DNA from: Longimicrobium sp.
GTDB taxonomy: Bacteria > Gemmatimonadota > Gemmatimonadetes > Longimicrobiales > Longimicrobiaceae
Direction: 5' to 3'
Assembly (NCBI GenBank): GCA_036387335.1
Contig: DASVTZ010000126.1
Span: 1 to 64,000 of the forward strand
Length of the DNA stretch: 64,000 nucleotides
Shown: positions 12,328 to 32,361 of the stretch, piece after piece
How the letters are laid out: every line of letters starts with the position of its first letter
How positions within the stretch are numbered: position 1 is the stretch's first letter
The notes under the pieces: generated by a model
What the model was told of the DNA's origin: nothing
Seen by the model: only the letters and a program-made list of their open reading frames with translations
Databases searched by the model: none
Translations under genes and position numbers: made by a program

Positions 12328-12353
12328 CCCGGTGGCGCAGTCAACGGCATTGC

Positions 12354-12436: not shown

Positions 12437-12448
12437 ACCCAAGGAAAG

Positions 12449-15169: not shown

Positions 15170-15267
15170 CGTGCGTTCCGCGGGCGGTGGGTGCGCGCTC
15201 CGGTGCCCACTGCGGGCAAAGAACCCCACCCCGGCAAGATGCGGTCCGGGCCGGTGCGGTCCCCGCA

Positions 15268-15357: not shown

Positions 15358-15472
15358 GTGCCTGCCGATGCGCCGACCTCTGCCGGATCGCGCCCGTGCC
15401 CCGCGTTGTAACCAGATAAAGGTGCCGCGACCGCGGTTCCACCACCCCGCACCCGCCGCGGCACCCACCCCG

Positions 15473-16021
15473 TCACGCCCCGTGCCCGCCCGACCCCTGC
15501 GCGGGAATGGCGCCGCACGCCACGGGCGCCATCGGGTCCGCCCCCGCGCCGGCGTGGAAGTTCACCACGTGCTGCCCGTTCATCACTGTCCCCATCGACA
15601 CCTTCACGGTGCTGGTGGAAGTGCCGGTGCCGCCCGCCATCGCCACACTCTCCAGCGGAGCCACCACCGGCCCCAGCTGGTCGCACGTCCCCGAGTGGAT
15701 GTGGCCCGGGTGCGTCGCGGTCCCCTGCCCCTGGAGCGTGACGGTCACCATCGTCTCGGCGGCGCCGTGCTCCATGATCTGCGCCTGCCCGGTGACCCCG
15801 GAGTTGTTGAGCGCCGTCAGCTGCACGGGAGTGGTGGCCGAGCTCTGCCCCGTCATCGTGCTCTCCGCGGGCGTGGTCGGCGGAGTGGTGGCACTCGGCG
15901 CCGGCGACACGGCTGCGGTCGTCGTATCCCCGCCCCCCTCGGCACCGCCATCACCGCCGCCCCCGCAGGCAGCAACCGACAGCGCAAGCGCCGGCAACAC
16001 CCATGTCCGAAACGCGATCAT
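15473..16021 (-). CDS. Secreted lipoprotein with CHRD/SOD-like beta domain
   Basis: 182 residues from ATG 16021 (MIAFRTWVLPALALSVAAC), with a lipobox ending SVAAC and a CAGGAGAAG ribosome site. A Ser/Thr/Pro linker leads to a domain with GQAQIMEHGAAETMVTVTLQG, THPGHIHSGTCDQLGPVVAPLESV and GQHVVNFHAG. This GHIH...C pattern is shared by CHRD proteins and Cu/Zn superoxide dismutase-like folds. The metal ligands of true SODs are incomplete, so enzymatic activity is doubtful. Confidence 0.75.
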   Translation of the reverse strand: MIAFRTWVLPALALSVAACGGGGDGGAEGGGDTTTAAVSPAPSATTPPTTPAESTMTGQSSATTPVQLTALNNSGVTGQAQIMEHGAAETMVTVTLQGQGTATHPGHIHSGTCDQLGPVVAPLESVAMAGGTGTSTSTVKVSMGTVMNGQHVVNFHAGAGADPMAPVACGAIPAQGSGGHGA

Positions 16022-16117
16022 AGTCTTCTCCTGTCGATGTGGACGCACGGCCGCATTGGCCAAGCGCGCCTCCCGCCATGCAAGCCCCGTTCACACACCC
16101 GGGTGCACGCCCCCGCA

Positions 16118-16675
16118 TCAAAACCGCGCACCGACCCTCAGCAGCGGCCGGTTGGCGGGATGGTCGAACGAGTGCACCGTCTTCCCCGCCGCGATCACCT
16201 CGCGCACAAGCCGTATGAGGTGCCCGCCGGGCGAAGCGTGCGGCACCACCAGCTCCCGCGCCAGCGACGCGACCACCCGGTTGCGCGCCTCGGCCGTGGC
16301 CGCGCTCAGCTCCACCACGTCGTCCGCGAACGGTGAGACCAGCAGCAGGCGCCCCCGGTCCAGCGGCGTGCGCCAGCGCACCGGAATCCGCGTCGCCGCA
16401 AGCCCGCGCGCCAGGCACACGACCACGGGCTGCGTCCCCTCTAGGAGCACCTCCAGGCACCCCCGCTCCACCGGCGACAGGAACCCTCCCACCACCGCAA
16501 ACCTCAGGTCGCGCGCGGACCGGGCCCACGCCAGCGCGTGCTCCTCCAGCGGCGGCGGCACCCGCCGCGAGCACAGCAGCCCGATCAACGCCTGGTCCAG
16601 CAGCGCGACATTCCCCAAGATCGAGAGCTCTGGGCCGCCCGCGATTCGTACGTGGGTATAGGGCGTTTTCACCAC
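16118..16675 (-). CDS. DprA/SLOG-fold Rossmann protein
   Basis: About 185 residues; start GTG 16675 or 16672 (VVKTPYTHVRIAGG). DLRFAVVGGFLSPVERGCLEVLLEG and VVVCLARGL resemble the nucleotide-binding core of DprA-like SLOG proteins. RGRLLLVSPF and NRVVASLARELVVPHASPGGHLIRLVREVIAAGKTV resemble its second half. The typical G(S/A)R-x-[GS]-x-[YF]G signature of DNA-processing DprA is missing, so a specialised SLOG protein is as likely as a natural-transformation factor. It follows the tubulin/actin cluster on the same strand after a 134-base gap. Confidence 0.65.
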   Translation of the reverse strand: MVKTPYTHVRIAGGPELSILGNVALLDQALIGLLCSRRVPPPLEEHALAWARSARDLRFAVVGGFLSPVERGCLEVLLEGTQPVVVCLARGLAATRIPVRWRTPLDRGRLLLVSPFADDVVELSAATAEARNRVVASLARELVVPHASPGGHLIRLVREVIAAGKTVHSFDHPANRPLLRVGARF

Positions 16676-16809
16676 GATCCGCAGCGGGTGTGGGCAAGTG
16701 CTCGCTCTGACAGGTGCAGGTGCTGGTTGCCGGCGTGCGCACACGGAGTCGCTTCCGCAAAGCCCGCGTTGCCGTATGCACCCTTCTCGAGCGTACGCAC
16801 ACGGGCGCG

Positions 16810-18006
16810 TCAACGACCCAGGGGCGTCCATCGCTCCAGCGACCCCATCGCGCCAAGCGCGTCGCGGTGGATCCCACGCGCAAGCTCGCTGAAGAACTCC
16901 GCGATGGGCGATTCCGACCGGCCGGCGGTTTGGAGTAGCTGGCGGAGGCAGAGCCCGAGCCCGCGGAGGTCCTGGTCTACGCTGGCGATGTAAGAGTCGT
17001 CGAACTGCTGCTTCAGCCAGTCCTCCGCACCTTCGGGGAAGAGGTCGATGGCCGAGCGCGGCACCTTTGTGCCGATCGGCCTAGAAGCGGGCGCCGCGAT
17101 GATGACTGCCTGGACACGTGCCCCGGTGCGGCCACGGGCGGGGCGGAAGACGAGCGTCCGTGGCGTGAGGACACCCACGCTCAGCGGCGGGTCAGATCGA
17201 TGCGCGGCGGCAAGGGAACCCAGCAGGCTGGACGCGATGTCGTAGAGCTTCACCTCGGCCTTCGCGGGCCACAGTGCTCCGCCGCCAGCCAGCAGCGACT
17301 CCAGTCCAATACCGATCGCCGGGCGGAGGGCGGCGTAGGGTCCGGCGTAGCCCTCCGCCTCAAGGGTTCCGCAATGAAGTACCTGCGCCGCAGCCCCCGG
17401 CAACGTGGCTTGCAGGCGGAGGAGGAGCGCACTCTCGGCCTCGAGCGCACCGAGGTGGGACGAGCGTCGTGGACTTCGGCCCCGCAGCAGGCGGAGCCAT
17501 ACGCGCTCCGGACCCGCCGCGGGGAATTCCGCGAGGTATCCCTGCAGCGCGCGCGACCGGTAGAGGTGGACCGGGTTCCCGTCTGCCCTGCGCACCAGAA
17601 CGGGACTCCAGGGTTCCCGCAACGGGGCATTGAGGAGGGGAGGGGGGCGCTGTATGGAAAAGAGGAGATCCTGCCCCGCGGGGCGCCGCCCGTATACACC
17701 CGGCGCGGGGATCACCTCACCCTGCTGAACGAGGCGGCCGGCTTCTATCCCGGGTGAGAGCAGCTGCGTCTGGAATATGGCCGGGTAGAGAGTACGCCAC
17801 CAGAAGCTCGTCCGCTGCTCCCACCGGAAGTACGGCCGGAGCCGGTCCGCTTCCAGCTGGGTAAGCGGGGGAATGTAGCTGGGCTGAGCCAAAACGAGCT
17901 GCACCTCGCCCGGCCTTCCCGTCGGTACGGCCTCCAGCGGTGTTACTACGTCGGTGCGGATCACCACGGTGGTGGCGTCTACTGGAAAAGCGTACCGGCG
18001 GGTCAC
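16810..18006 (-). CDS. Degenerate kinase-fold protein of the motor/cytoskeleton cluster
   Basis: 398 residues, last gene of the cluster, ATGA overlap with the preceding stop. Residues 1-150 are unrecognised (TVVIRTDVVTPLEAVPTGRPG and an aromatic-rich stretch). Residues about 160-380 follow protein-kinase order in degenerate form: ALEAESALLLRLQ (helix C-like), a hinge-like segment, LYDIASSLLGSLAAAH, GVLTPRTLVFRP where HRDLKPxNLL would be, PRSAIDLFPEG as activation segment, and SVDQDLRGLGLCLRQLL as helix F/G. The catalytic Asp and DFG are absent, so it would be a pseudokinase. This is inference from pattern order, not a firm domain call. Confidence 0.75.
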   Translation of the reverse strand: MTRRYAFPVDATTVVIRTDVVTPLEAVPTGRPGEVQLVLAQPSYIPPLTQLEADRLRPYFRWEQRTSFWWRTLYPAIFQTQLLSPGIEAGRLVQQGEVIPAPGVYGRRPAGQDLLFSIQRPPPLLNAPLREPWSPVLVRRADGNPVHLYRSRALQGYLAEFPAAGPERVWLRLLRGRSPRRSSHLGALEAESALLLRLQATLPGAAAQVLHCGTLEAEGYAGPYAALRPAIGIGLESLLAGGGALWPAKAEVKLYDIASSLLGSLAAAHRSDPPLSVGVLTPRTLVFRPARGRTGARVQAVIIAAPASRPIGTKVPRSAIDLFPEGAEDWLKQQFDDSYIASVDQDLRGLGLCLRQLLQTAGRSESPIAEFFSELARGIHRDALGAMGSLERWTPLGR

Positions 18007-18905
18007 GGTTCGTTCCGCCGGCGTGCGTGGCAGAGCCGGTGGTGCAGGGCGATGGTTTCGGCATATACCCAGCTCTCGTCGGCCGTCAGCGTCTCCGAGT
18101 CACCGCGGGAAGCGTACTGGAGCGCGAGCTCGGCGGAAGGATCTCGTTTGGCGGCGGAGAGCAGCGACTCGAGCGTCTGGAGATGCACTCCGGCGCCGTG
18201 CCGGAGCAGCCTGCGTGCCTCCCGGTGGAGAGGAGCCCGATCGATCCTGGAGAGGGTGAGGAGCATCTCGTACTGGAACTCGGGGCCGCCGGGGCTGTGC
18301 GTGACGTCAGGGCCCGCATCGGCCAGCCAGAGATTGATAGCCTCCTCCCGGGCCGCCAGCCGGGTGGCCCCCGTTCGCAGCCAGAAGCGAACCGCGTCCA
18401 GTGCGCGCAGCGAGCGGCAGGCGCCGATCCGCTCTTCAGTGACCCCGCTGACGGATTCCCATCTCGCCCAGGCGCCGGGAAGCGCTTCGGCGTATCGGAG
18501 CCGCATGCGGCGGAGCTCGGCGCGCAACTCCTCCACGACGTCGAGCAGGTGCACTATCTCTCGCGCGTGCCGTGCGAAGGCCGCCATCTGCGCGAGCGTG
18601 CTGTGAAGTGGTTCCTCGTGAAGACGCCACGGTCTCTCCTGCGCCAGGGTGGCGCGTGCGAGGCGCGCTTGCGGGCCGTCGAAGAGCGAAGCACCGCGAC
18701 GTGCGAGGAGAGCAAACCGGGACGCGATGCCTGGAGTGCCCGGCCAGCGCGCGGCCGCTCCGGCCCTGGCCTCGCAGGCGTCTGCCTCCGCCGCCCGCAC
18801 GATGCGCCAGCCCGGCCCCGCCTGCGCGCGTCCGTACGCGGACCAGCCATCCAGGATGAGAGGCGAGGGCGCCGGCTGCGCGTCGGGCGCTACTTCGGGC
18901 GGCAA
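18003..18905 (-). CDS. Alpha-helical protein of the cluster, unknown family
   Basis: 300 residues, soluble and helix-rich. Acidic and basic residues alternate (VVEELRAELRRMRLRYAEAL, RREARRLLRHGAGVHLQTL). No membrane segment, no known motif. It overlaps the end of the OmpA-like gene by 16 bases and the next gene start by 4, so it is co-translated. It could be an adaptor between the OmpA/MotA pair and the kinase-like protein. Confidence 0.75.
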   Translation of the reverse strand: MPPEVAPDAQPAPSPLILDGWSAYGRAQAGPGWRIVRAAEADACEARAGAAARWPGTPGIASRFALLARRGASLFDGPQARLARATLAQERPWRLHEEPLHSTLAQMAAFARHAREIVHLLDVVEELRAELRRMRLRYAEALPGAWARWESVSGVTEERIGACRSLRALDAVRFWLRTGATRLAAREEAINLWLADAGPDVTHSPGGPEFQYEMLLTLSRIDRAPLHREARRLLRHGAGVHLQTLESLLSAAKRDPSAELALQYASRGDSETLTADESWVYAETIALHHRLCHARRRNEP

Positions 18906-19573
18906 CCCGGCCTCCCTCCCGAGGAGCTCCCCGGGATTACGGGGTGGAGGAGGAGCTCGATCCTGCGGTCGCGGGCGTCCGTGGAGTCGTTGCGCACCCT
19001 TTGCCTCGTGTCACGCGGGAAGTACTCCCCCCGGCCGGAGGGGATGACGCTGCAGGGGTCCAGCCGGACGCTGTCGATCATGAACTCGGCGACCGTCGCG
19101 GCTCTCGCCGTGGAGATGCCCCAGTTCGTGAGCGCCGAGCGTCTGGCATACTGGGTACGGTCCGCATGGCCGACAACCTCGATCTCGCGGATCAGGCGGC
19201 CCAGTCTGGCGTCCCGCGTCACCTGTCCGATGGAATGCAGCGCGGCCCGACCCTGTGGCTTCAAGTCGACCAGCCCGCTACGGTTCCGCGGAAACGTGAC
19301 GTTCTCTTCGAGGATCACCAGCACGTCAACACCGACCTTCTCCACCGAGAAGGTCCGCTGGCGGTCGGCCAGGCTGTTCAACTCCGCGTACAGCCGGTCC
19401 ACCTCGGGCCCCTTGCCGCTCGCCTGCACGTACCCGAACGCCATCACTACGAAGAAAACCAGCATGATCATGCTGGTTGCGGCAAAGAGATCCGTGAATG
19501 CCGGCCACGGGCCTCCGTGATCCGTGCCGCTCGGGCCGCCAATCTCCAGCGACTCATCCTGATCGAAGCTCAT
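18890..19573 (-). CDS. OmpA/MotB/ZorB-like peptidoglycan-anchored motor subunit
   Basis: 227 residues. Start ATG 19573 (MSFDQDESLEIGG) overlaps the upstream MotA-like stop (ATGA). One N-terminal helix, AFTDLFAATSMIMLVFFVVM (about 27-46), has an Asp near its cytoplasmic end, as MotB and ZorB do for ion conduction. The C-terminal OmpA domain (about 75-215) has VVGHADRTQYARRSALTNWGISTARA, SGRGEYFP and NDSTDARDRRIELLL, i.e. the peptidoglycan-binding NxxLSxxRA-type helix and the terminal R-R-[IV]-[EV] strand. It pairs with the gene immediately upstream. Confidence 0.88.
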   Translation of the reverse strand: MSFDQDESLEIGGPSGTDHGGPWPAFTDLFAATSMIMLVFFVVMAFGYVQASGKGPEVDRLYAELNSLADRQRTFSVEKVGVDVLVILEENVTFPRNRSGLVDLKPQGRAALHSIGQVTRDARLGRLIREIEVVGHADRTQYARRSALTNWGISTARAATVAEFMIDSVRLDPCSVIPSGRGEYFPRDTRQRVRNDSTDARDRRIELLLHPVIPGSSSGGRPGCRPK

Positions 19574-21399
19574 CGCCGCGTGCCATTCTTCGACGTGCCG
19601 AACCAGCGCCGCCAGACCGGCCCCGCCAGGCGAGCTTCCAGCGACTCGACGGCACCTGACAGGCGGTCGAGGCTTTCGGCGGATGCCGCCACTGGGGAGC
19701 CGGGTTGCCGGCGAAGCTGTTCTTCCAGCAACTGCAAGGTGAGCGCGACGCGCTCCAGCACCGGAGCGCTCCCCCTGTCCGCGGCTCCGTTCATCGCGGC
19801 CTGCATCCCTTCCTCCACGGCACGGGTAACGCGCTCCATGGCATGCGCGCCCCCAAGTGAGTCCGCGGCTTCCGTCATCGCGGCCCGCACCCCCTCCTCC
19901 ACGGCTCCGGCTACGGCGGATGCACTCCTTCCCAGCTCGGCGGCGACGATCTCGGAAGTGTCGCGTCTCAGCGTTTCGAGGCTGGAGCGGTGCTGCGTCT
20001 CCGCCTGCGTAATCGCCGATGAGATCTGCCGCGCTTCGGGGAGCAGGAGATCCACCGACTCGCGTATCCCCCTGTACTCGTGCGCCGCCCGGCGCGCGGC
20101 ACGTGTGTGCCGGGTGGTCGCCTGCTCGATCTCCGCCAAGCGCGCGCGGATCGCGGAGGTAGCGCTCTCGGCAAAGGTTCCGAATGCCTCGCGCGACTGC
20201 CGGAGCTCGCCCGCCGCCGCGGAAAGCTGCGTTCCGGCTTCGGCAAGGGCGTCGCTCCGGTGCGCGAGCGTCCCCGCGATGCTCTCGTAAAGCGACGTGG
20301 CGTGCTGTACCGAGAGGGCGACTTCGGTGAGGTGGCGCTCCACTCCGTCCAGCCGCTCGCTGCTCTCCGACGCGAGCCGCTCGCGCTGCTCGCTCAGGAT
20401 CGTGTCGAGCGTTTCGGTGGTCTTGTCCAGCGAGGTCTCCACCGTGTGGCTGAGTCCCTCCAGCGAGTCGCCCAGCTTCTCCAGGTTGCTGGAGATTCCC
20501 TCCAGGTTTCCCGTGGCCTGCCGAAGCGCGTTCAGCGCCTCCGTGAAGTTGCTGGTGGCGACCGTCTGGCTCACCTTCTTGTACACGTACAGCGACGATG
20601 CCTGCTCCAGCCGCGCCAGCATGTTGTTGCGCCCCAGCCCCAGGCCGAACGAGGCGAGCCCCAGCGCGATGGAGCCCAGCAGCGCGCTGAGGTTGGCCCC
20701 GAACGCCCCCGACACCATGCGCAGCGCGTCCTGGAGCGCCGGAACTCCCCCCGTGCCCGCCGCCACTCCCAGCGCGTCCACCAGTGCGGGCATGGAGGCC
20801 TTCACTCCCACGAAGGTGCCGAGTACGGTGAGCAGCAGGAGCAGAGTGGAGATGTAACGAGCCGCGTCGCCCACGCCCGCCGCACGGGAAAGGGCAATGG
20901 CCCGCAGCTCTGGGCCGCGCAGCGTGTCGTGCGGCTGCGCGCCCTCGCTGGCCATGCGCAGCACGCGCAGCACGCGGTCGTCCATCAGCGTCTGCACCCG
21001 CGGCGCGGCCACGGCCCTCGCCTTCGCCTCTTCGAGGTGGAAGAGGGCAGTTTTGCCGCCCATGAGAAGCGCCCGGTCCCGGGGCGCCAGCAGCACCAGC
21101 TCCAGGTGATCGCGCCCCTTCGCCAGCACGAAGGCGATGTCCTCCTCTTCCCTGCGAAGCCAGGTCCAGTCCCTCGCGGCGCTCAGTACCAGCGCGGCGA
21201 CGGTGAGCACCACGCCCGCGACGTTGAGGATCTTCAGCAGGGCCGCGGTCTCGCCCCACCGCACGAGGCCGCTGGCGTGGAAGGCGGCAAGGCTGCCCCC
21301 GTAGACCAGCACGGCAAGCGCGATAAAGAGGAGAGCCACCTGGTCGCCGCGCCGGGGCGGCTGGAGGCGATCAGAATCCTGCGGGGGACTGCTCGTCAT
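19570..21399 (-). CDS. MotA/TolQ/ZorA-like channel with long coiled-coil tail
   Basis: 609 residues. Two N-terminal membrane helices (about 21-41 and 54-75), a cytoplasmic loop, then two helices that match the proton-channel pair of MotA/ExbB/TolQ: ARYISTLLLLLTVLGTFVGV (about 179-198) and GANLSALLGSIALGLASFGL (about 233-252). From about 270 to 560 the sequence is a heptad-rich coiled coil (SNLEKLGDSLEGLSHTVETS and so on), the architecture of ZorA in Zorya systems, where the tail reaches far into the cytoplasm. The OmpA-like partner follows with an ATGA overlap. Confidence 0.87.
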   Translation of the reverse strand: MTSSPPQDSDRLQPPRRGDQVALLFIALAVLVYGGSLAAFHASGLVRWGETAALLKILNVAGVVLTVAALVLSAARDWTWLRREEEDIAFVLAKGRDHLELVLLAPRDRALLMGGKTALFHLEEAKARAVAAPRVQTLMDDRVLRVLRMASEGAQPHDTLRGPELRAIALSRAAGVGDAARYISTLLLLLTVLGTFVGVKASMPALVDALGVAAGTGGVPALQDALRMVSGAFGANLSALLGSIALGLASFGLGLGRNNMLARLEQASSLYVYKKVSQTVATSNFTEALNALRQATGNLEGISSNLEKLGDSLEGLSHTVETSLDKTTETLDTILSEQRERLASESSERLDGVERHLTEVALSVQHATSLYESIAGTLAHRSDALAEAGTQLSAAAGELRQSREAFGTFAESATSAIRARLAEIEQATTRHTRAARRAAHEYRGIRESVDLLLPEARQISSAITQAETQHRSSLETLRRDTSEIVAAELGRSASAVAGAVEEGVRAAMTEAADSLGGAHAMERVTRAVEEGMQAAMNGAADRGSAPVLERVALTLQLLEEQLRRQPGSPVAASAESLDRLSGAVESLEARLAGPVWRRWFGTSKNGTRR

Positions 21400-21415
21400 C
21401 GTTCGGCTACTCTGT

Positions 21416-22555
21416 CTACGGCCGGGCGCGCGCGCGGCCCTTCTGCCGCACGTGTCCCTGGCTGGAGGTGGGATCCCAGTCGATCACGGCGGGCGCGAGC
21501 GTATCGTACGCGCCGGTCCCGCCGCCCTCCAGGTGAAAGGCGGTTTCCAGCAGGGCGGCGGTGAGGTCGGCGAACTTGAAGTTGGGGTTGATCCATGCTT
21601 CGGCATGGTCCGCTCCCTCACGCCACCGGATCTCGATCATAGGGCGATGCGAGTTGTTGAGCCGCACCACCTCGTCTTTGGAAAGGGTCCCCTTGAGGAT
21701 GCGGACACCCTCCGCGGCCGCACCTTGCCCCGTCCGAGACGGCGCGGCGGTGACCTGCGTCGGGTGTGGAACGTCCTGCCCGTGCCGGGCGTCGAACTTT
21801 TGTTGAAGCGCATGCACCTCCTCGAGCGTCTCTTCCACGCAGCGCTTGAGCGCCCGCACCTCATCCACCAGGCCGTTGAACGCGGGCCAGTCGGCCTCCG
21901 GCTCGGGGTCTGGCGTCCAGGCGGAACGCTGCGGGCGGTCCGCCTCGGAGAGCGAGCGGCGGGTCTGCGACCCGCGTAGCTCCTCCACCTCGTATCGCAG
22001 CTGATTCAGTGCGCGCGACAGGCGGAAGGCGGCTACGAGGCCCGCCCCGGCCAGCACGAGGGCGGCCCACCCCGGCCATCCACCGCCACGCGCTCCGCTG
22101 TCCCTCTGCGCGCTGGTGGGCTGGAGTGTGGCACCCCCGGAGGCTACCCCGGGGGCGGTGTCGCCCCGCGTCCGCCCGGGGGGAGCGCCCTTGGGCGAAT
22201 CCGCCTCCGTCTGCCCCTTGGACGCGCCCACACCCTTGCTGCGCCCACCTGGTTCCTGTTTCCCTCGAGCGCCGGCCGGGCGCGCCCCGGGGGGGGTGTC
22301 GCGCTGCGCTCCTCCCCGCGGCGCGTCCCCAGGTGCGTCGACCTCCACCCCGGCCACGGTCGCGGCCCTGCTTTTGTCGCGCTCAACCACGCCCCGCTCC
22401 ACGGCGTCTTCCTCGGTGGTGGCCGAGATCCCCGGGGCGTCGCCGGACAGCGCCAACCTCGCGCTCCACCCCACTATCCCGGCGGCCACCACGAATATCA
22501 GGATCAGCGGGACGGACGATGCGTGGCTGGACCGATACCTCTTCTTGTAGGGCAT
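21416..22555 (-). CDS. Bitopic or two-helix membrane protein with coiled coil and novel C-terminal domain
   Basis: 379 residues. A basic start (MPYKKRYRSSHASS) precedes a helix (about 15-36). A Gly/Pro/Arg-rich low-complexity linker (about 40-155) leads to a second helix (GWAALVLAGAGLVAAFRLS) and a coiled coil (ALNQLRYEVEELRG, LVDEVRALKRCVEETLEEV). The C-terminal 95 residues form a conserved-looking domain with RPMIEIRW, NPNFKFADLTAALLETAF and YDTLAPAVIDWDP. It lies 3 bases after the actin/Hsp70-like gene, so it may couple that ATPase to the membrane. The domain was not recognised. Confidence 0.78.
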   Translation of the reverse strand: MPYKKRYRSSHASSVPLILIFVVAAGIVGWSARLALSGDAPGISATTEEDAVERGVVERDKSRAATVAGVEVDAPGDAPRGGAQRDTPPGARPAGARGKQEPGGRSKGVGASKGQTEADSPKGAPPGRTRGDTAPGVASGGATLQPTSAQRDSGARGGGWPGWAALVLAGAGLVAAFRLSRALNQLRYEVEELRGSQTRRSLSEADRPQRSAWTPDPEPEADWPAFNGLVDEVRALKRCVEETLEEVHALQQKFDARHGQDVPHPTQVTAAPSRTGQGAAAEGVRILKGTLSKDEVVRLNNSHRPMIEIRWREGADHAEAWINPNFKFADLTAALLETAFHLEGGGTGAYDTLAPAVIDWDPTSSQGHVRQKGRARARP

Positions 22556-22558
22556 GGG

Positions 22559-25500
22559 TCAATCCACGAGGGAGCGCTCGAGTTGGCGGAGGCTCGCCGC
22601 CGCTTCCACCCCGAAGATCGAGACCGTGTCGAGCTCCTGGGCCGCGATATCGGCGGCGAGCCTCCGCTTCACCTGGTTGTCGAAGAACACCTCCGTGCAC
22701 TCTGCGAGCGCGCTCCGAACGCGACCCGCGAGTGTCCCCCACTTCTTGTCCACCTTGTTCAGCTCTTCCAGCGCATCGACGAAGGCGGTGTTGAAGCGGG
22801 AGATCTCCCACTCGCCGAAGGGCTGGCTGTACGAGAGCTCGATTACCTGCTCGCGACTGAGCGCGGAGGCGTCGAGCATCTCGGGTGCGGTAAGGGAGCG
22901 GGTCTCGCCGCCATCCTGGCCGGGAACGGAGACGTCTTCCCCGACCGGCTGGAACGACGGGATGTCATCGTCGGCGGAGAATGGGTCGTCCCGCAGCAGC
23001 CCGAGCACCACCTCCTGCTTGGGCTTGCTGCTCGAACTAATCTTCAGGTCGCCCGGCAGCGGCTGGCCGTATCCCGCCTCCAGCACGCGCTGGAAGAGGC
23101 GCGTGTACGGCTTGGACAGCGGAGACTGGTTCCAGTGCTCGAACTGCGTCAGCCAGTTGAGGTAGCTCGCGCCGTTCCCCGCGAAGAAGAGCGCGTCCGG
23201 CGGGCTGCCCTGCGACGGCTCCAGCGAGCGGAGGCGCAGGCCCACGTTGTAGAGGATCGCGCTGTAGAAGTAGGCGATGCACGCCTGTACGCTCATGAAC
23301 CACGGCTCGCCCGCCAGCGCCCCGCAGTGCTCCGCGAACCAGGGCTGGCGAACCAGGTAGGTGAAGCGCGTGTGCTCGGTGGGGTAGCGCCGCAGGACGT
23401 TGAGGGGCGCGCCGCGAAGCCCGTTCCTTTCGGCCCAGCTCTGGAGTCGTCCATAGATCGAGGGCTCCGCCCCGTCGCCCGCGATCAGGTCGCGCCCCCC
23501 GAACAGCATGGACATGCGAAGCACCGGCCCGCCTTTGGCGAAGGCGGTGATGTCGGTGGTGCCGCCTCCCACATCTGCCGTCAGCTTCATGGTCTTCGCC
23601 TCCACCGAGAAGCTGGAGCGCGAGGCCGGGTCCGAGCCGAAGAAGAGCATCGATGCGGTGCTCTCGTCCAGGTAGCGGAGGGGGAGCGCGGGCGTGCTCC
23701 CCCCGGGCTGCCCCTTGGCGCGAAAGCTCCGGATGGCGACCTCCCACTCCTGGCGCGTGGAGGCTCGGCGGTTGCGCGAGAACGCGATCGGGTACGACAC
23801 CCTGAATTCCATCTCTTCGGTGCGGGCGCCACGGGCCAGTGCCTCGGCGTGCACCACCTGCAGGATCTGGTGGAGGAAGAGCCGCGTCAGCCGGCGCGTG
23901 TCCGCGCCGCCGCCCCCCCACTTGAGGTCGCCCACCAGCACATTGTTCTGCTGCTGCCCTCCGTCGCCCCCGATCTCGCCGCTGAACGGGATGTTGGCGG
24001 TGAAGGCGGGAAGATCGGCGAGAGGGCTCTCTGGTCCCGCGCCACGGCTCTTAAAGATGACGGTCGAGAACGGCTCCCCCTTGAGCTCGGCGGGAAAGAA
24101 GAAGGTGTCAAAGTAGGTGCCGGCGCTTTCGGCCTCGTCCCCCCCGGTCAGGTCGAACCGGGTAGCATGCGACACCTGCAGAGGGCGCGGAGCGGAATCC
24201 TGCGGGTCGACGTGCGCAACGACGGTATTGGAGGTGCCGAAGTCGATCGCCACTGTCCACGCGGGGAACGTCGGCTCCGGAACGCTCCGCAGCCGGGGGA
24301 GCACCACCCCCTCGGCCGCCTGGGAGCGGAAGTGGCGGCTGCGGAGCCGGATCGCCTCCGCCGGACGCCCGAAGTGGTAGAGCACCGTGCTCTGGTCGCG
24401 GCGGATGCTCTGCGCCGTCACACGCTCGCCGCCCGCGCCGATATCCACGTCGAACTCCTCGCCGGCGTCGCCGCCCTCCAGGTAATGGATCAGGTAGAAG
24501 TCGCTCCATCCCGCCGCGCTCCCCTCCGGCTTGAACCCGGGCCACAGGCTCAGGTGCGACGTCGCGCCGGTGAAGCCGTCGTAGGTACGCTGCACCGCCA
24601 CCGTCCCCCCCCGGGTGGGGACGGCGAGCGTAAACCTCACCTGTGGCCGGTCTCCCCCCGAGAGGATCTTGCAGGTAAGCATCCCCGGCACGTCTTGGGC
24701 CCGGAAGAAGTCGAAGAAACGCTCCTTGAGAGGGAGCAGGATGCGGGAGGCGAGCGCCGGGTCGCCCTCCAGGGCCGCGCCGTACACGCGGTCGGCGTGG
24801 AAGGGCGCGTCGACGATTAGAAGCTCCTCGGACAGGAAGTCGCTCTCGGGGAAGATCCAGGGTTGCTTCCATGCCGTGCCGGGAAGGACCTGGCGGTCAC
24901 TCTGCGCCTCGGCCACGGTGCCCCTGGGCCGCGGGAGCCAGGGGAAGTAGAGGTCCTGCGAGCTTCGGCCGCTGTTGTCCAGCACCAGGGGGATGTCTCC
25001 GCCCGAAGGCGCGAGGCGTGTGGGCTGGAGCGAGAGCGTGCTCCCGAGCGACGCTTGGGCAAGCCGGTGCAGCACCACGCCCGGCACCGGTTCCATCTGG
25101 GTCTCGGCGTACGCCAGGGGCTCGCTCGGCAGATCCACGTCGGCGAGCTGTGCCTTGAGAAGGCTCTTCAGCTCTTGGAGCTCGGTGAGCGCGCCCAGCG
25201 AGCTCGCGTCCAGCTGCGGGATCAGCCGGTCGCGCACGTACTGCCCAAGGAGCACCGGCCGCTCGGCCAGCGGGCGCAGCGGGCGCGACCCGCCGTAGTA
25301 CCCGGGAACGGACGCGTGCTGGGCTTCGGGCGTGAAGAACAGCGTGAACGGCGAGAAGGCGAAAAGAATGGGACCGTCCTGCGCCAGCCCGTTGAACACC
25401 ACCGTGACGTCCGTGAGCGTGGTGCGCGGCTGCCGCTCCACCACCGGCGCGAGGTCGCGCAGCGCGGTGACGAACCGCCCGACCCCCCGGCTGCGCGAAG

Positions 25501-25843
25501 CCGCCGCGCAATCGTGCAGGTTGTCTATGGAGATGGTGCGGGAGCGGAGCGAAACCCCAAAGATGAACGCCTGGAACAGGACGATCTCCATCGAGTCCAG
25601 GATGTCGTTGAGCGCGTCTTCGTGGAAGGGGTGCCCCTGGTCCACGATCGCGTCGCGAAACAGCTGGACGCGCGCCCACGGGTTCGGTATCGACGAGATC
25701 CGTCCCCGCTTCGCGCGATCCTCGGCCTGGCGCAGGTCCACCTTGGTCAGCTCGTCGGGCAGCTTGATCTCGTGCCACTCTCCCGCCGGGGCGCGCGTTA
25801 CGCCGGCGTCTTTCACGAGCGGGTGCAGGAGCAGTCGGCTCAT
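22559..25843 (-). CDS. Giant actin/Hsp70-fold ATPase of the cluster
   Basis: 1094 residues. The first 525 residues match nothing I recognise. At 533-540 begins the ASKHA core: IDFGTSNTVVAHVD (phosphate-1), EFRVSYPIAFSRNRR (connect region), LDESTASMLFFG, TADVGGGTTDITAF at about 755-768 (phosphate-2) and LFFAGNGASYLNWL at about 885-898 (adenosine motif). So the ATP-binding elements of Hsp70/actin-like proteins are intact. There is no substrate-binding domain of DnaK type; the tail (about 900-1094) ends in ELDTVSIFGVEAAASLRQLE. It sits between the tubulin-like gene and a membrane coiled-coil gene. Confidence 0.85.
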   Translation of the reverse strand: MSRLLLHPLVKDAGVTRAPAGEWHEIKLPDELTKVDLRQAEDRAKRGRISSIPNPWARVQLFRDAIVDQGHPFHEDALNDILDSMEIVLFQAFIFGVSLRSRTISIDNLHDCAAASRSRGVGRFVTALRDLAPVVERQPRTTLTDVTVVFNGLAQDGPILFAFSPFTLFFTPEAQHASVPGYYGGSRPLRPLAERPVLLGQYVRDRLIPQLDASSLGALTELQELKSLLKAQLADVDLPSEPLAYAETQMEPVPGVVLHRLAQASLGSTLSLQPTRLAPSGGDIPLVLDNSGRSSQDLYFPWLPRPRGTVAEAQSDRQVLPGTAWKQPWIFPESDFLSEELLIVDAPFHADRVYGAALEGDPALASRILLPLKERFFDFFRAQDVPGMLTCKILSGGDRPQVRFTLAVPTRGGTVAVQRTYDGFTGATSHLSLWPGFKPEGSAAGWSDFYLIHYLEGGDAGEEFDVDIGAGGERVTAQSIRRDQSTVLYHFGRPAEAIRLRSRHFRSQAAEGVVLPRLRSVPEPTFPAWTVAIDFGTSNTVVAHVDPQDSAPRPLQVSHATRFDLTGGDEAESAGTYFDTFFFPAELKGEPFSTVIFKSRGAGPESPLADLPAFTANIPFSGEIGGDGGQQQNNVLVGDLKWGGGGADTRRLTRLFLHQILQVVHAEALARGARTEEMEFRVSYPIAFSRNRRASTRQEWEVAIRSFRAKGQPGGSTPALPLRYLDESTASMLFFGSDPASRSSFSVEAKTMKLTADVGGGTTDITAFAKGGPVLRMSMLFGGRDLIAGDGAEPSIYGRLQSWAERNGLRGAPLNVLRRYPTEHTRFTYLVRQPWFAEHCGALAGEPWFMSVQACIAYFYSAILYNVGLRLRSLEPSQGSPPDALFFAGNGASYLNWLTQFEHWNQSPLSKPYTRLFQRVLEAGYGQPLPGDLKISSSSKPKQEVVLGLLRDDPFSADDDIPSFQPVGEDVSVPGQDGGETRSLTAPEMLDASALSREQVIELSYSQPFGEWEISRFNTAFVDALEELNKVDKKWGTLAGRVRSALAECTEVFFDNQVKRRLAADIAAQELDTVSIFGVEAAASLRQLERSLVD

Positions 25844-25858
25844 CGCGTTGTTCCTGGA

Positions 25859-27427
25859 TCAGGTGGTGGCGTACCACTCGGTGACGAAGAGGCGGGTCCC
25901 GGCTTCCATGTAGCGCAGGAGGCCGGGAAGCCCCGCCCCCTTGGGAACACGCGCGCGGTTGTACCACGAGAATATCTCCGCCAGCGACGCGAGCTGGTCC
26001 TCGCCGCCCTTCCCAAAGATCCCCAGCCGTTTCGGCTTCTGCCGCGGTGCGAAGCCCGCTAGGCACTTGTCCACGGGCGGGAGACGGAACTCCGTCTCCG
26101 GGTTGTCTCCCCCTGACCTCGCGTACTCGTCGGGCGTCCGGATCGCCCGCCCGCTGGCACCCTCAAACGTCACCAGACGGACGGGGACGTAGTTTTCCGA
26201 CACGGCACGCAGGTAGCCCCACACAGAGCCGAAATACCGCCCCAGCGCGTCGAGCGCCGCGCTCTGGGTGCGGACGAACTCCGGCGCGAGGGCGATCTCG
26301 TGGACCCAGGCCTGGCTGCGCAGCTCGTCGATGATGGCCTGCTGCTCCGCGCCGCTCCGCGTGGGGCCAAAGTACTGGAGGAAGAAGTTGGCGGCGACGA
26401 GGAACGCCTGCAGATCGCGCCGCTCCTCGGTCCCGAGCGGAAGGTCGCTCCACGTGGGCTGCTGGCCTGCCACGGTGCTGTAGCGGACGCGTGTGGGAGC
26501 GCCGGGCTCGTGCGGGCGCTGCGCGAAGTCCAGCGCCGCCAGCGCGGCGTAAAGCTCCACCACGTGCGGATCGTTCTTTTGGCCCGCGCCCCCGGCGGAG
26601 TACAGGGGGCGCGGCCGAGGGAGCGACTGGTCGTCGCCGATGACGTAAAGCGCTCCGTACTCCGAGTGGCCGCGGACGTAGGTGGGGAGAGCCGCCGCCG
26701 TATTGCGCAGGAACACCTCGCTGTTTGGCTTCAGCCTTCCATCCTGCCGCTCGCCCTGGCCGGGTTCCTCCAGGGAGTAGTAGGGCGTCACGAGCGCGGC
26801 GCCGAGCGCCGCCCGCTGGATTCCCTCCGCCGCCAGCACCTTTGCCAGCACGGGAAGCGCCGACGCTCCCGTGCCCCCGAAGATGGAGCCGGCCACGAAG
26901 AACGCGGCCGAGGTGTCGCCGCGGGCGCTGCTCATGAACTGGCGGAAGAACTCCGACTCCCGGATTCCGTGCATCAGGATGGAGCCGATGGAAGGGTTTC
27001 CGCGGAACCCTTCGCGGAGTGGCTCCTTCTGCTGCCCCGGCGAGAAGAGGAGGTCCAGGAGGGTGGCTGCGTCCGCGCAGTCGCCCGTCATCCGCTGGCG
27101 CTCGGTGAAGCGCTCCAGCGTCACCTGTCCCACATCGTCCGTGCTTCCGCTCCCCAGCGGCGACCACACGGATTCGGCCGGGGCCGTGCGGATCAGCGCC
27201 GTGCGGAAGAACCCCTGCTCCGGGTTGCCGAACGCCTCCCGCACGAGGGCGTACTGGCGCGTCAGCTCACGCGCGCGGGCTACCGCGGGGTTCGCCGCGT
27301 CCGCGTCGATCAGCATCACCGCTAGCCGCGCCGGGCCGAGCCCCGCGGCGCAGAGAGCGAGGAGCGGCTCCACCGACAGTGCGCCGGTTCCCCCCACGGC
27401 GAGGTAATAAAGCGTGTTGGTCGACAT
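25859..27427 (-). CDS. Tubulin/FtsZ-superfamily GTPase-like protein
   Basis: 522 residues. YYLAVGGTGALSVEPLLALC at 7-26 is the first glycine loop of tubulin-like folds. MLIDADAANP at 38-47 fits loop T2. AGSIFGGTGASALPVLAKVL at 179-198 contains the tubulin signature GGTG[AS]. This pattern is that of Tubulin_2/FtsZl-type proteins, not of cell-division FtsZ. Published gene-context work (Makarova and Koonin) tied the FtsZl-2 family to vWA and OmpA-family proteins in a predicted membrane-remodelling system, which agrees with the neighbours here. No membrane segment. GTP binding likely, polymerisation unknown. Confidence 0.87.
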   Translation of the reverse strand: MSTNTLYYLAVGGTGALSVEPLLALCAAGLGPARLAVMLIDADAANPAVARARELTRQYALVREAFGNPEQGFFRTALIRTAPAESVWSPLGSGSTDDVGQVTLERFTERQRMTGDCADAATLLDLLFSPGQQKEPLREGFRGNPSIGSILMHGIRESEFFRQFMSSARGDTSAAFFVAGSIFGGTGASALPVLAKVLAAEGIQRAALGAALVTPYYSLEEPGQGERQDGRLKPNSEVFLRNTAAALPTYVRGHSEYGALYVIGDDQSLPRPRPLYSAGGAGQKNDPHVVELYAALAALDFAQRPHEPGAPTRVRYSTVAGQQPTWSDLPLGTEERRDLQAFLVAANFFLQYFGPTRSGAEQQAIIDELRSQAWVHEIALAPEFVRTQSAALDALGRYFGSVWGYLRAVSENYVPVRLVTFEGASGRAIRTPDEYARSGGDNPETEFRLPPVDKCLAGFAPRQKPKRLGIFGKGGEDQLASLAEIFSWYNRARVPKGAGLPGLLRYMEAGTRLFVTEWYATT

Positions 27428-27430
27428 GGC

Positions 27431-27928
27431 CTAAAAGCGGAAAGGGAACCGCGAGTTGTTGATCCACGTGGCGCGGCGCGTCCAGCGGGCCACGAGGGAA
27501 AGGAGCCAGCTGAAGAGCACGAAGAGGATCAGAGACTGGACGAGTGCCACCGAAGCTCGCAGGAGGGCGTACTGCGACGGAATGCGGGTGGTGGCCTCGC
27601 CGTAGCTGCACCCGGCGGTGCTGACGGGTACGAGGCTGAGGTAGACGTAGCAGACCAGTGCGGTGACACCGGCACCCGCCACGAGCCACTTCCACCAGCG
27701 GGCTTTGAACTGGTGCCCCATCGTCCGCGTCTCGTATGCCCCGAGCACCAGCAGGATCGCTAGGAGCAGGGTAATGCCGGTCGCGACGCCGAAGGCGGAG
27801 ACCCAGTCGGCTTCGGCGATCACGGGACGCGCCGTGGAGATCCCGCCCTCGGGGGATACGGGGCAGACCGTGAGATCCGCGAACATCTGAGGGCGCGCGG
27901 CCCACCAGTGGATCAGCTCTTTGGACAT
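27431..27928 (-). CDS. Small integral membrane protein of the cluster
   Basis: 165 residues with three hydrophobic helices (about 42-63 VSAFGVATGITLLLAILLVL; 80-101 WLVAGAGVTALVCYVYLSLV; 125-147 LVQSLILFVLFSWLLSLVA) and a basic C-terminus. The N-terminal MSKELIHWWAARPQMFADL is cytoplasmic or amphipathic. It is 3 bases from the tubulin-like and 3 bases from the vWA lipoprotein genes. It could be the membrane dock of the tubulin-like protein. No family recognised. Confidence 0.75.
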   Translation of the reverse strand: MSKELIHWWAARPQMFADLTVCPVSPEGGISTARPVIAEADWVSAFGVATGITLLLAILLVLGAYETRTMGHQFKARWWKWLVAGAGVTALVCYVYLSLVPVSTAGCSYGEATTRIPSQYALLRASVALVQSLILFVLFSWLLSLVARWTRRATWINNSRFPFRF

Positions 27929-27931
27929 GGC

Positions 27932-29251
27932 TCAGTAAAGTGCGACGTAGAAACCCGCCAGGCGGGCCGGCTCGGCCTGCAGCTGGGAGAAGAGGGTGCT
28001 CAACCCGTACGTGCGCGTGGCGTCGCCCTGCCGCGGGGCATCGAAGCGGGCCAACCACGCAGGCCTTCCCGTGGAGACCAGCTCCACGCGATAAGCGCTC
28101 GGGGGTATACCGGGCCGGGTACGGATCTCCAGTGGCACTCGGATCCGGCTCCCGTCCACGACGGGAGCGCTCGGCGCGACCCACGCCTCCGTTGCGTCCA
28201 CGTCCCGCCACTGCGCCCCGGCTCCGCAAAGGGGCGACCGGCTCACCCGCGTGCGGAGGGTGTCGGTCGCGGTGAACCGGGCCAGGCTTCCGGCGACGTC
28301 GAACCCCACCTCGGTCTGGACCACCGCTCGCGTAGCGGGAGGCGAAGCGTGCAGCAGAAGCCGGAGAGGACGTCCGGCCCCCGCCGGGTAGGGCGCGAAC
28401 TCTCCGGGTGTCCCGACGAACCGCGTTGCGCCCACGCGGGTCCGCACCAGGGTGTCGGACAGGCTGGGAGAGACGTGCAGGTATGGCATCGCGCCCATCA
28501 GCCGCGGAAGCACGGCGGGTGCGGCCGAGCCCGGCAGGAAGGCGAAGACGTAGAGGGGGCAGCGGAGGTTGGTGCGGGGGGTGTCCGTCCAGCACCCGGC
28601 GCTGTCACTTCGCACCTGCTGGAAGCGAGCCTCGACCGCGCCGACCGCGAATACGGAACCGATTGCCCCGTTCCCCGGCGAGCCTGACCACTGCTGGGCG
28701 AGCCGGCCGAGCCGCTGGTACTGCGCGATCGCCGAGGCCCCGTCCCCGCGTCGCCCGTCGGTGACGACGAGGTGCACCGACGCCCGTCGCGAATCCGCCT
28801 CCACCGCGTCCAGCACGTCCTCGAGCTGTGTGTTGTTGTCGCCGTAGAACTCCTGCCGTACCAGCTGCGCTATGACGTCCTGGTTCGTCGGCGCCGCCAC
28901 CGGCCGGAGCGCGCTGCCAAACCCGTATACCTGTAGGCGCGGGAGGGAAGCCAGCCGGCTCAACACTGACCGGAGGCTGGAACTGCCGGGTGCAACGCCG
29001 AACCCGGTGGAGAAATCCCGGTCCAGATAGCCAGCCATACTCCCCGAACGGTCCACGTACAGCCTCACGGGGAACGACTGACGCGTGATCTGCACGGTAT
29101 GTTCGGGTCGCAGTGGAGATGCCACCCTGTCCATTCGGGATAGCGCCCCCTGGAGCGTGGCACAGGCCTGCTCCGCGTTCGGCTGCGGGCATGCCCCCAA
29201 GCAGGCCAAACTCGCCACGAAAAGGAGCTGGCGATTCAGAGTTGTGCTCAT
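27932..29251 (-). CDS. vWA-domain lipoprotein
   Basis: 439 residues. A lipoprotein signal peptide ends LACLGAC (lipobox; acylated Cys about 21). VRLYVDRSGSMAGYLDRDF at about 62-80 is a full MIDAS DxSxS motif; later SVHLVVTDGRRGDG supplies the MIDAS Asp. A C-terminal beta-rich part (about 300-430) is unassigned. vWA domains bind proteins through a metal; here it would act at the outer face of the inner membrane or the outer membrane. First gene of the tightly packed part of the cluster. Confidence 0.87.
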   Translation of the reverse strand: MSTTLNRQLLFVASLACLGACPQPNAEQACATLQGALSRMDRVASPLRPEHTVQITRQSFPVRLYVDRSGSMAGYLDRDFSTGFGVAPGSSSLRSVLSRLASLPRLQVYGFGSALRPVAAPTNQDVIAQLVRQEFYGDNNTQLEDVLDAVEADSRRASVHLVVTDGRRGDGASAIAQYQRLGRLAQQWSGSPGNGAIGSVFAVGAVEARFQQVRSDSAGCWTDTPRTNLRCPLYVFAFLPGSAAPAVLPRLMGAMPYLHVSPSLSDTLVRTRVGATRFVGTPGEFAPYPAGAGRPLRLLLHASPPATRAVVQTEVGFDVAGSLARFTATDTLRTRVSRSPLCGAGAQWRDVDATEAWVAPSAPVVDGSRIRVPLEIRTRPGIPPSAYRVELVSTGRPAWLARFDAPRQGDATRTYGLSTLFSQLQAEPARLAGFYVALY

Positions 29252-29322
29252 CTATGCCGTAGCCCCGCGGAGCAGGGGTGTGGAGCGGGTGACGGGAGGA
29301 GTAAAGCGACTGCGGCACTCCC

Positions 29323-29350
29323 AAGGTAAAGATCCAAACAAATGCCGCAA
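29323..29350 (-). promoter_or_regulatory. Possible internal promoter before the vWA lipoprotein
   Basis: Minus strand TTGCGG (29350-29345), 16 bases, TACCTT (29328-29323). It lies in the only sizeable gap of the cluster (29252-29592) and would give a leader of about 65 bases. The match to consensus is moderate. Confidence 0.35.
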
Positions 29351-29407
29351 GAGGGTGCTTCAACGCGCATCCGCCTTGACGCGTTCAGGTGCGGCCGCGG
29401 GGTTGCT

Positions 29408-29593
29408 TCAGCGGGGAGCCAGACTGGCGGTTGGGCCTCTGCGCATACAGCGTTCGCAGACGGTCGCAAAAATGGTGTGCCCAGCATGGGCGATGGGTCC
29501 GCAGGTGACGTCTCGGTCGGCGGCCCGCCCGGAGCGGACGCCAGTCTCCTCCAAGCCGTCCGGCCCGGGGGCGGCGTCGACATCTGCCAGCAT
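29408..29593 (-). CDS. Possible small metal-binding protein
   Basis: 61 residues from ATG 29593, which overlaps the stop of the membrane protein 29593-29988 as TGATG. CGPIAHAGHTIFATVCERC has the spacing C-x5-H-x2-H-x6-C-x2-C of a possible zinc site. No strong Shine-Dalgarno, but coupling through the overlap is plausible. It may instead be a non-coding leader for the next gene; antisense frames are no better. Confidence 0.3.
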   Translation of the reverse strand: MLADVDAAPGPDGLEETGVRSGRAADRDVTCGPIAHAGHTIFATVCERCMRRGPTASLAPR

Positions 29594-29988
29594 CACGAAT
29601 CACGTACCGCCGTTCGATCAGCCCGACGCCGTACACCGACTTCGTCGACCTGCCCGGGTACGTCGTCGTCGGGAGACTCTCCTTGCGGCTCCTGCGCCAA
29701 TCCCCCGGGCGGTTGAGGGGAATCCGGAGATGTCGGCACCGGTTCACCGCGATGGAGGAGAGCTCCGAGCATGACTACGAAAAACGGAGGCCGGAACTCT
29801 CCCTCGGCGGCCCTGGCGCGGAGCAGCATCGAGCAGGCACTCAAGAAAACCAGAATAAAGACAATCAGCACCGCTTCGACCTGCCCGATTCCCGCAAGCC
29901 CGTACCCCGCCCGTGCCAGAGCCGCCCATCCGATCATCACGGCCACGCATGCCAGCAGTACTGCCAAAGTCTGCTTGAGGCGAATCAT
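29593..29988 (-). CDS. Small membrane protein, two helices
   Basis: 131 residues: helix 1 LAVLLACVAVMIGWAALARA, helix 2 VEAVLIVFILVFLSACSMLL, then a hydrophilic Pro/Asp-rich tail. ATG 29988 has GAGGTGTGAG upstream. It is 45 bases behind the large vWA membrane protein gene. No family recognised. Probably a small subunit associated with that protein. Confidence 0.65.
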   Translation of the reverse strand: MIRLKQTLAVLLACVAVMIGWAALARAGYGLAGIGQVEAVLIVFILVFLSACSMLLRARAAEGEFRPPFFVVMLGALLHRGEPVPTSPDSPQPPGGLAQEPQGESPDDDVPGQVDEVGVRRRADRTAVRDS

Positions 29989-30033
29989 CTCACACCTCTA
30001 CAGAAGGGGGACGGCCCTAGTCGCCATTCGCGC

Positions 30034-32049: not shown

Positions 32050-32108
32050 ACCAGGGAACTCGAATCAACGGACATTAATTAGGCCAGGCTTATGCAGGGC
32101 GCAGGCAT

Positions 32109-32135
32109 ATTATACGTCATTACCCGCAACCGCAA
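32109..32135 (-). promoter_or_regulatory. Probable promoter of the vWA-tubulin-motor cluster
   Basis: Minus strand has a perfect TATAAT (32114-32109) with a TTGCGG 15 bases upstream, about 60 bases before the ATG at 32049. The 32050-32361 gap otherwise shows an AT-rich TTAATTAATG and nothing else identifiable. Confidence 0.5.
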
Positions 32136-32361
32136 CGAGTTTGTTTGTGGCGCAAGCCGGGTGGACGCACGGCTTGCGGCGAGAACCAGCTCGGGGCAGC
32201 GAAAGCGGTAGGGCATGGACTACCTGGCTGTCACTGTACGAGGAGGAGCCGCTCCGGAGGATGCTGGGCTTCCCTGGCCACAGGCAGTCGGACCGGAGAT
32301 CGAATCGTTCTGCGAACGCAGTCCTGTCCGTCCAAGCCTCTTGGCATTCACTCTGCTGACC

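Follow-up and report, generated by a model that had tools for sequence, protein, structure and literature searches.

A 64,000-nucleotide stretch of Longimicrobium sp. DNA (contig DASVTZ010000126.1, assembly GCA_036387335.1), referred to here as the window, carries a gene pair for a membrane motor that resembles the ZorAB motor of Zorya systems. The pair sits in a conserved accessory operon that joins a motor of the 5:2 superfamily to proteins of tubulin, actin-fold, vWA and membrane-anchor type. The operon is a compact gene set on the minus strand, read from position 32049 down to 16810 in the order vWA1, g2, vWA2, g4, tubulin-like, actin-like, g7, MotA-like, MotB-like, g10 and g11. Nine of its 11 gene junctions, counting the one into the flanking gene g12, are overlaps or gaps of at most 16 nucleotides. 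From vWA2 onward all nine junctions (again into g12) are gaps of 3-16 nucleotides or overlaps of 4-22 nucleotides, and the two motor genes overlap by 4 nucleotides. Proteins of ten of these 12 genes, all except g2 and g4, were scanned with Pfam and PADLOC models at E values up to 1.

The motor pair

The MotA-like channel (19570..21399, minus strand), putatively ZorA-type, is a protein of 609 amino acids with four membrane helices and a coiled-coil tail of about 290 residues. Its hydropathy peaks begin at residues 21, 54, 183 and 237. Residues 281-570 show a helical periodicity of 3.58 residues with a power of 117.9, compared with a mean of 35.8 for shuffled sequences, none of which reached as high in 300 trials. 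The MotB-like partner (18890..19573, minus strand; 227 amino acids), putatively ZorB-type, contains a single N-terminal membrane helix, which bears Asp28 (PWPAFTDLFAATSMIMLVFF), as well as an OmpA domain (PF00691, 34.7 bits against a cut-off of 27.2), and matches the PADLOC ZorB1 model with an E value of 1.1e-7. A first-pass annotation made from the sequence had described a four-helix channel with a coiled coil of this length and a partner with an Asp-bearing helix and an OmpA domain, and both descriptions hold. Asp28 and the channel residue Thr195, located in an LGTF (GT) motif, are each invariant in 9/9 aligned sequences. In Zorya, according to the part of the report available, the ZorB Asp packs on a ring of ZorA Ser/Thr residues (PMC11890865). 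Asp28 and Thr195 may be the counterparts of these residues, and their conservation makes them candidate ion residues of a predicted 5:2 pentamer-dimer motor.

The channel belongs to the 5:2 motor superfamily, and the pair is very probably a motor of the ZorAB type. In a 37-row tree, the family's own channels, ZorA and L056 fall on one side (support 93/81), with L038A on the side of TolQ and MotA. A 28-row tree, which omits ten of those rows (nine near-copies or same-group sequences and the very long L039A) and adds L144A, places the own channels, ZorA, L056, L038A and L144A together against TolQ/ExbB/MotA (97/95). Grouping of the channel with TolQ/ExbB, one of the refuting outcomes named beforehand, was rejected in both (approximately unbiased test, p-AU 0.0018 and 0.020, respectively), and a single clade with ZorA was not rejected in the larger tree (p 0.22). 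The AlphaFold2 model of the channel, with a mean predicted local distance difference test (pLDDT) score of 53.2 overall and usable for residues 13-278 only, has ZorA (8qyd) as its top Foldseek match, with a probability of 0.99 but an E value of 0.037. Its root-mean-square deviation (rmsd) in VIA alignments is lower for ZorA (3.5-3.7 Å) than for ExbB/TolQ (4.1-5.2 Å).

A second set of results does not support the ZorAB assignment or qualifies it. In Pfam profile searches PF01618 does not match the channel, and its PADLOC ZorA matches lie mostly in the coiled coil, where JetC coil models score alike. HHalign comparisons of the membrane core gave insignificant probabilities of 12% for ZorA, 9% for TolQ/ExbB and 0.3% for a single MotA sequence. 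When the channel profile was searched against PDB sequences, coiled coils ranked highest and ZorA chains came up only at insignificant E values (0.053 and 1.4). By VIA Z, ExbB/TolQ structures (9.8-11.2) are nearer to the model than ZorA (8.6-8.9) or flagellar motors (6.9-7.5). Unrelated helical pore proteins, at a Z of about 9, fall in between, and the values lie in a range that helical bundles may reach by chance; structure supports the superfamily and does not settle the subfamily. An additional N-terminal helix gives the channel the helix count of MotA, and in most solved ZorA and ExbB chains the alignment to the model begins only at residue 38-49 of the latter. Both trees come from a weak alignment with long branches, and the position of flagellar MotA opposite the channel in each depends on one long-branched E. 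coli row. The earlier proposal that the architecture lies closer to ZorAB than to MotAB or TolQR is upheld by the tree and the rmsd, and not by the profiles, HHalign, VIA Z or the helix count.

Zorya types I-III combine ZorAB with ZorC/D, ZorE or ZorF/G. The window pair shares with them a MotA-fold channel with a long cytoplasmic coiled-coil tail, a partner with a transmembrane Asp and a peptidoglycan-binding domain, and the grouping with ZorA in the tree. It differs in its additional helix, in its fixed linkage to vWA, 4TM, tubulin, actin and TM-coil (transmembrane-coil) genes, and in its lack of effectors, since none of the ten scanned operon proteins matched a ZorC, ZorD, ZorE, ZorF or ZorG model. 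Because the effector genes that define Zorya are absent, the pair is not a Zorya member despite its ZorA-type motor, in agreement with the first-pass annotation, which had placed it outside a standard Zorya locus. With TolQR/ExbBD and flagellar MotAB the pair has the common superfamily fold, whereas its channel differs in the rejected TolQ/ExbB placement, the unmatched PF01618 and the coiled-coil tail. A study of MotAB evolution did not include ZorAB in its trees, and the word tubulin does not occur in its main text (PMC12505986).

The tubulin-like and actin-like proteins

The gene at 25859..27427 (minus strand) encodes a core component of the operon, a real, predicted tubulin-like GTPase of 522 amino acids with N-terminal GGTG and SIFGGTGA loops. 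Matches of this protein to PF00091 (E 0.0083) and to PF13809, Tubulin_2 (E 0.037; 13.7 against a cut-off of 27 bits), both fall below cut-off, and PF13809 is matched by only 1/8 members of the family tubulin alignment at E values up to 0.1. A distant relative, L034, passes the PF13809 cut-off with 45.2 bits, and the GGTG and FGGTGA loops are invariant in a 17-row alignment of tubulin-like sequences; the assignment is made because of these loops and of L034. The tubulin-like profile found no relative in the PDB.

The adjacent core gene (22559..25843, minus strand) specifies a protein of 1094 amino acids in which a long N-terminal region precedes an ATPase domain at residues ~526-960. DFGTSNT and DVGGGTTD motifs are conserved, and the AlphaFold2 model has a mean pLDDT of 73.8. 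The best Foldseek match of the domain is MreB (E 6.5e-9), with a VIA Z of 13.2 and an rmsd of 3.7 Å over 283 residues, closely followed by MamK, FtsA, PilM and Hsp70. The model shows the predicted ATPase to have an MreB/Hsp70 fold. A comparison with SrfABC was considered, but no SrfB match was found for this protein in the Pfam scan.

These two genes had been read as occupying the place of the missing Zorya effectors. The genes are real; the layout had been misread. Both belong to a separate and far wider vWA/4TM/tubulin/actin core that usually occurs without a motor, so that the motor is the added part.

Conservation of the operon family

Eight loci besides the window belong to the same family, seven in other genomes and one as a second copy in the Longimicrobium genome itself; the locus of genome G014 is split over two contigs. 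Their proteins share ~28-42% identity with the window copy, and 9/9 readable family loci retain the order vWA2, tubulin, actin, TM-coil, MotA, MotB, as far as the contigs reach. Conservation of gene order at such identity lies far beyond chance. The second copy (L018, G000:C109:43179-53491) is a divergent operon whose proteins likewise fall at ~28-42%.

Further genes of the operon recur at other loci. vWA2 (27932..29251, minus strand) encodes a core component, a lipoprotein-like vWA protein of 439 amino acids with a conserved DxSxS motif (DRSGSM) yet no Pfam vWA match; its DRS residues and Cys21 are invariant across eight aligned sequences. Next to it lies g4 (27431..27928, minus strand), a small membrane protein of 165 amino acids with 3-4 helices by hydropathy, which counts as core by position and whose slot is occupied likewise at other loci. 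The TM-coil protein g7 (21416..22555, minus strand; 379 amino acids) has a conserved C-terminal domain; clustering identified its homologs in seven other family loci, and the eighth, in L021, was recognized by eye. In 6/8 of the other family loci MotB is followed by cl5, a protein of ~690-730 amino acids. In the window, cl5 appears to be split into g10 (18003..18905, minus strand; 300 amino acids), corresponding to its N-terminal part, and g11 (16810..18006, minus strand; 398 amino acids), corresponding to its C-terminal part. These two score 16.0 (shuffles ≤5.1) and 9.0 (shuffles ≤3.5), respectively, against the cl5 profile, with collinear matches. By eye we take g11 to be kinase-like.

Two genes lie upstream of vWA2. 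vWA1 (30034..32049, minus strand) encodes an optional component of 671 amino acids with a signal peptide, a vWA-like domain (a weak VWA_3 match, E 0.2) and C-terminal membrane helices; a relative is present in L022. Between vWA1 and vWA2 is g2 (29593..29988, minus strand), a small membrane open reading frame (ORF) of 131 amino acids whose status as a gene is uncertain. At the other end of the operon, g12 (16118-16831, minus strand) is SLOG/DprA-like and matches the PADLOC model PsyrA (E 8.9e-15). It was considered as a member of the accessory unit described below and rejected, because it belongs to the conserved left flank: its 3' part is collinear in genome G006 and has matching DNA in G004 and G005.

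A wider vWA/4TM/tubulin/actin core

Used as single queries, the window tubulin and actin found no match in the viral_contigs or genome_contigs collections. The tubulin profile recovered 14 loci in genome_contigs, from Gemmatimonadota, Bacteroidota genera, an acidobacterium, Alphaproteobacteria, Competibacteraceae, Omnitrophota and one unassigned bacterium. Where readable, loci outside the phylum have, in this order, an often lipoprotein-like ORF at the vWA position, a small protein with several helices, the tubulin and the actin. Only L035, L036, L037, L039 and L041 among them match the vWA2 profile itself; at the others the vWA label is given by position. A TM-coil protein gene often follows the actin across phyla, and sequence comparison weakly suggests that these proteins share ancestry.

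The core is also found on mobile DNA. Tubulin relatives occur in six records of the plasmid collection, five of them cyanobacterial, and the core gene set could be read in four cyanobacterial plasmid records and a Prevotella record; in Gloeothece the lipoprotein gene is reversed. Five IMG/VR contigs carry the core set as well, one with a relaxase gene upstream of it and another with a large terminase gene, and two of the core-bearing plasmids are typed mobilizable. The L034 tubulin had no match among phage records, and the window MotB had only three weak matches among plasmids, over its OmpA part.

A motor is present in 12/28 core loci that could be read downstream (the window, L018, L020, L021, L022, L023, L024, L025, L026, L038, L144 and L145) and absent from 16/28 (L031, L033, L034, L035, L037, L040, L041, L116, L117, L118, L119, L120, L141, L142, L143 and L146). 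The count leaves aside L036 and L042 at contig ends, the uncertain L039, the fragments L027, L030 and L032, the weak L051 and the plasmid record H9, which has a tubulin match. Outside the family, motors occur in L038 from Paludibacter (Bacteroidota) and in L144/L145, two viral contigs that are 95-98% identical; the membrane core of the L144 channel matches PADLOC ZorA2 (E 6e-5). The L038 and L144 channels do not stand beside the family's own in either tree, and one shared clade was not rejected (p 0.115), so one or two recruitments of the motor are possible. We prefer the view that a ZorA-type motor was recruited to the core twice rather than once.

The motor and the tubulin/actin core are likely to form a functional unit. 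In an improbable alternative, they are two independent accessory cassettes that are co-inherited in islands, and the motor on its own is an orphan ZorAB. This would fit the lack of a motor in most core loci outside the family and the presence, elsewhere in the Longimicrobium genome, of a ZorAB-like operon next to a CHAT gene (L135). Independent cassettes do not fit the order maintained in all nine family loci despite ~28-42% identity to the window copy, the overlapping genes, or the pairing of core and motor in at least one further lineage (L038, L144/L145). Nevertheless, with most cores lacking a motor, motor and core need not act jointly everywhere, which counts against a general coupling of the two.

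Two other core loci show unusual neighbors. In L039 (L039:5125-7941, minus strand; Competibacteraceae), a divergent gene pair lies upstream of the core. One gene encodes a 4-helix protein whose coiled coil is very long, the other a TM-coil protein that has Glu instead of Asp in its helix; the pair is perhaps another motor, one without Asp. In L142 (L142:14980-19464) the core is followed by an 880-residue protein with TPR matches and then by three short ORFs, which include a clear pair of paralogs. A TerD-like identity of these ORFs was only a guess and was dropped; the one tested had no Pfam match.

Accessory and mobile distribution

Comparison with a close relative, G006, defines an accessory unit of 15.7 kb (16628..32361) in the window, which includes vWA1. 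G006 is collinear with both window flanks at 89-91% identity (the left flank, 10720-16627, at 90.9%; collinearity resumes at 32362) and carries ~1.6 kb between them in place of the unit. This segment (L133, G006:C13, ~8621-10241) encodes two ORFs, one nucleotidyltransferase-like and the other short and winged-helix-like, which by eye could be a toxin-antitoxin pair. G006 carries a relative of the operon elsewhere. By its actin protein the operon is found in 9/61 genomes (the own genome and relatives), and by the tubulin profile in 9/395 genomes of the phylum. The distribution of the operon and its core is accessory and mobile.

Clues from neighboring genes

Some motor-bearing loci adjoin genes for nucleases or proteases. 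In L144 the motor overlaps by 4 nucleotides a gene whose product ends in DUF4357 and, at its C-terminus, matches PDC-S14, a model for candidate defence proteins (E 1.6e-24). After a short gap follows a DNA/RNA non-specific endonuclease (PF01223, Endonuclease_NS, E 7e-48) with an N-terminal hydrophobic segment. In L038 the gene after MotB encodes a Trypsin_2 lipoprotein-like protein that matches RT-Protease models. CHAT protease genes gave 50 matches in eight genomes (3-9 each), and 5/9 family loci have one on the operon contig, the nearest at ~0.3, 0.5, 0.7, 4.7 and 4.7 kb.

ZorAB-like pairs are also found apart from the core. In the Longimicrobium genome, the separate pair of L135 (G000:C230:14425-21879; ZorB1 E 7.9e-23) directly adjoins a CHAT gene and is followed by three genes without a PADLOC match; it is a possible ZorAB-CHAT defence operon without ZorC/D/E. 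Similar pairs occur in other Gemmatimonadota genomes (L057, L059, L062, L063 and L064), some with a third gene directly downstream.

A predicted envelope machine

The explanation proposed here, a mobile, defensive envelope machine in which a ZorAB-type motor is coupled to a tubulin/actin apparatus, is as a whole about evenly poised between holding and failing, and the same can be said of the defence role taken separately. It draws on the 9/9 gene order, the invariant Asp28 and Thr195, the trees, the actin fold, the pairing in L144/L145 and L038, mobility and the proximity of CHAT genes. On the other side, the five CHAT-linked loci are one related clade and not independent, and the other four, including the window, have no CHAT gene on the contig. 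Furthermore, none of the scanned operon proteins has a match to a known effector: PADLOC yields only ZorA/ZorB-like and coil matches plus the flanking g12.

We infer a single complex in which ion flow rotates the tail, the rotation is coupled to nucleoside triphosphatases (NTPases), the trigger lies in the envelope and an effector is released. The operon products would form one machine spanning the envelope, with the tubulin-like GTPase and the MreB/Hsp70-fold ATPase as its cytoplasmic part. The small multi-helix protein g4 and the TM-coil protein g7 may tie these NTPases to the membrane, and the vWA lipoprotein on the outside would probably act as a sensor or bind a ligand. The machine of this family would have acquired a ZorAB-type 5:2 ion motor, in which MotA-like subunits, extending a long coiled-coil rod into the cytoplasm, surround MotB-like subunits; in the latter, Asp28 would conduct the ion and the OmpA domain would hold on to peptidoglycan. 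As in Zorya, a disturbance of the envelope such as phage entry could unlock ion flow. The pentamer and its rod would then turn and license or drive assembly of the tubulin/actin NTPases, switching on an effector. The effector may be lineage-specific: the non-specific endonuclease for the two viral contigs and, perhaps, CHAT proteases for the sister clade, with g10/g11 or vWA1 as candidates in the window.

A broader version of this proposal, held only tentatively, is that these loci represent a new class of immune machine. Here a rotary ZorAB-type motor, powered by protons or sodium, would mechanically drive or gate the tubulin/actin apparatus, its torque passing through the coiled-coil rod to NTP-driven filaments. 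The core is widespread; its nuclease or protease effectors would be interchangeable and its motors would have been recruited more than once. The closest predicted immune parallel is provided by the GAP1-N2 GTPase-centred conflict systems, in which tubulin or HSP70 occurs with vWA proteins (Kaur et al., 2020; PMC7159879). Those systems are centred on TRAFAC GTPases and FNIII proteins, neither of which had a Pfam match among the ten operon proteins scanned, and the word 'MotA' does not occur in the main text of that article.

The main rival is a machine for envelope or membrane remodeling or transport, in which the motor would power cytoskeletal NTPases that work on vesicles, export or the wall, and defence would have no part; we consider it rather unlikely. 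Remodeling was proposed in 2010 for operons of FtsZl1 and vWA genes, to which OmpA genes are linked, and transport was suggested by a reviewer of the same article (Makarova and Koonin; PMC2875224). The score of L034 above the Tubulin_2 cut-off connects the core to that group. The window operon resembles these FtsZl1/Tubulin_2-vWA operons in its tubulin-like protein and putative vWA gene, with OmpA-domain genes in some of them. FtsZl1/Tubulin_2 proteins are characterized by a long central coiled coil followed by a C-terminal domain of helices. The window operon differs in the sub-threshold score and length of its tubulin-like protein (522 against 1051 amino acids for the type protein), and the accessible portion of that article mentions no actin-fold ATPase or MotA-type motor as a component (PMC2875224). 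A remodeling function is also harder to reconcile with the patchy accessory distribution, the replacement of the unit in a close relative, the carriage on plasmids and viral contigs, and the nuclease or protease genes adjacent in some loci.

A motor for surface motility or adhesion, similar to gliding motors, is highly improbable. Gliding and type 9 secretion are also powered by 5:2 motors, as the available portion of the Zorya report states (PMC11890865), but no adhesin or secretion gene was recognized in the unit, and the core lies on plasmids and viral contigs, with a nuclease as neighbor in L144.

No description of this motor combined with tubulin and actin proteins was found in searches of open-licence PMC papers, which do not cover Zorya papers published elsewhere. 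If correct, the defensive envelope machine would be the first direct link, in the literature covered, of a rotary membrane motor with tubulin- and actin-family proteins, and a route to the question of what the rotating ZorA tail acts on in Zorya. The long-orphan FtsZl1-like/vWA operons would gain testable partners, with the conserved Asp, the GTPase and the ATPase as targets for mutation. The operon may be an unreported immune machine, its relatives being found across several bacterial phyla and also on mobile DNA.

Other features of the window

Elsewhere in the window, a stretch of lower G+C content (38643-44279) encodes an adenylosuccinate-synthetase-like protein with a P-loop N-terminus, DUF7002, radical-SAM and dCTP-deaminase-like proteins, as well as an HNH protein similar to type IV restriction enzymes. 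A c-di-GMP-I-GGC riboswitch is found at 48666-48740 on the minus strand, with a score of 64.7 bits.

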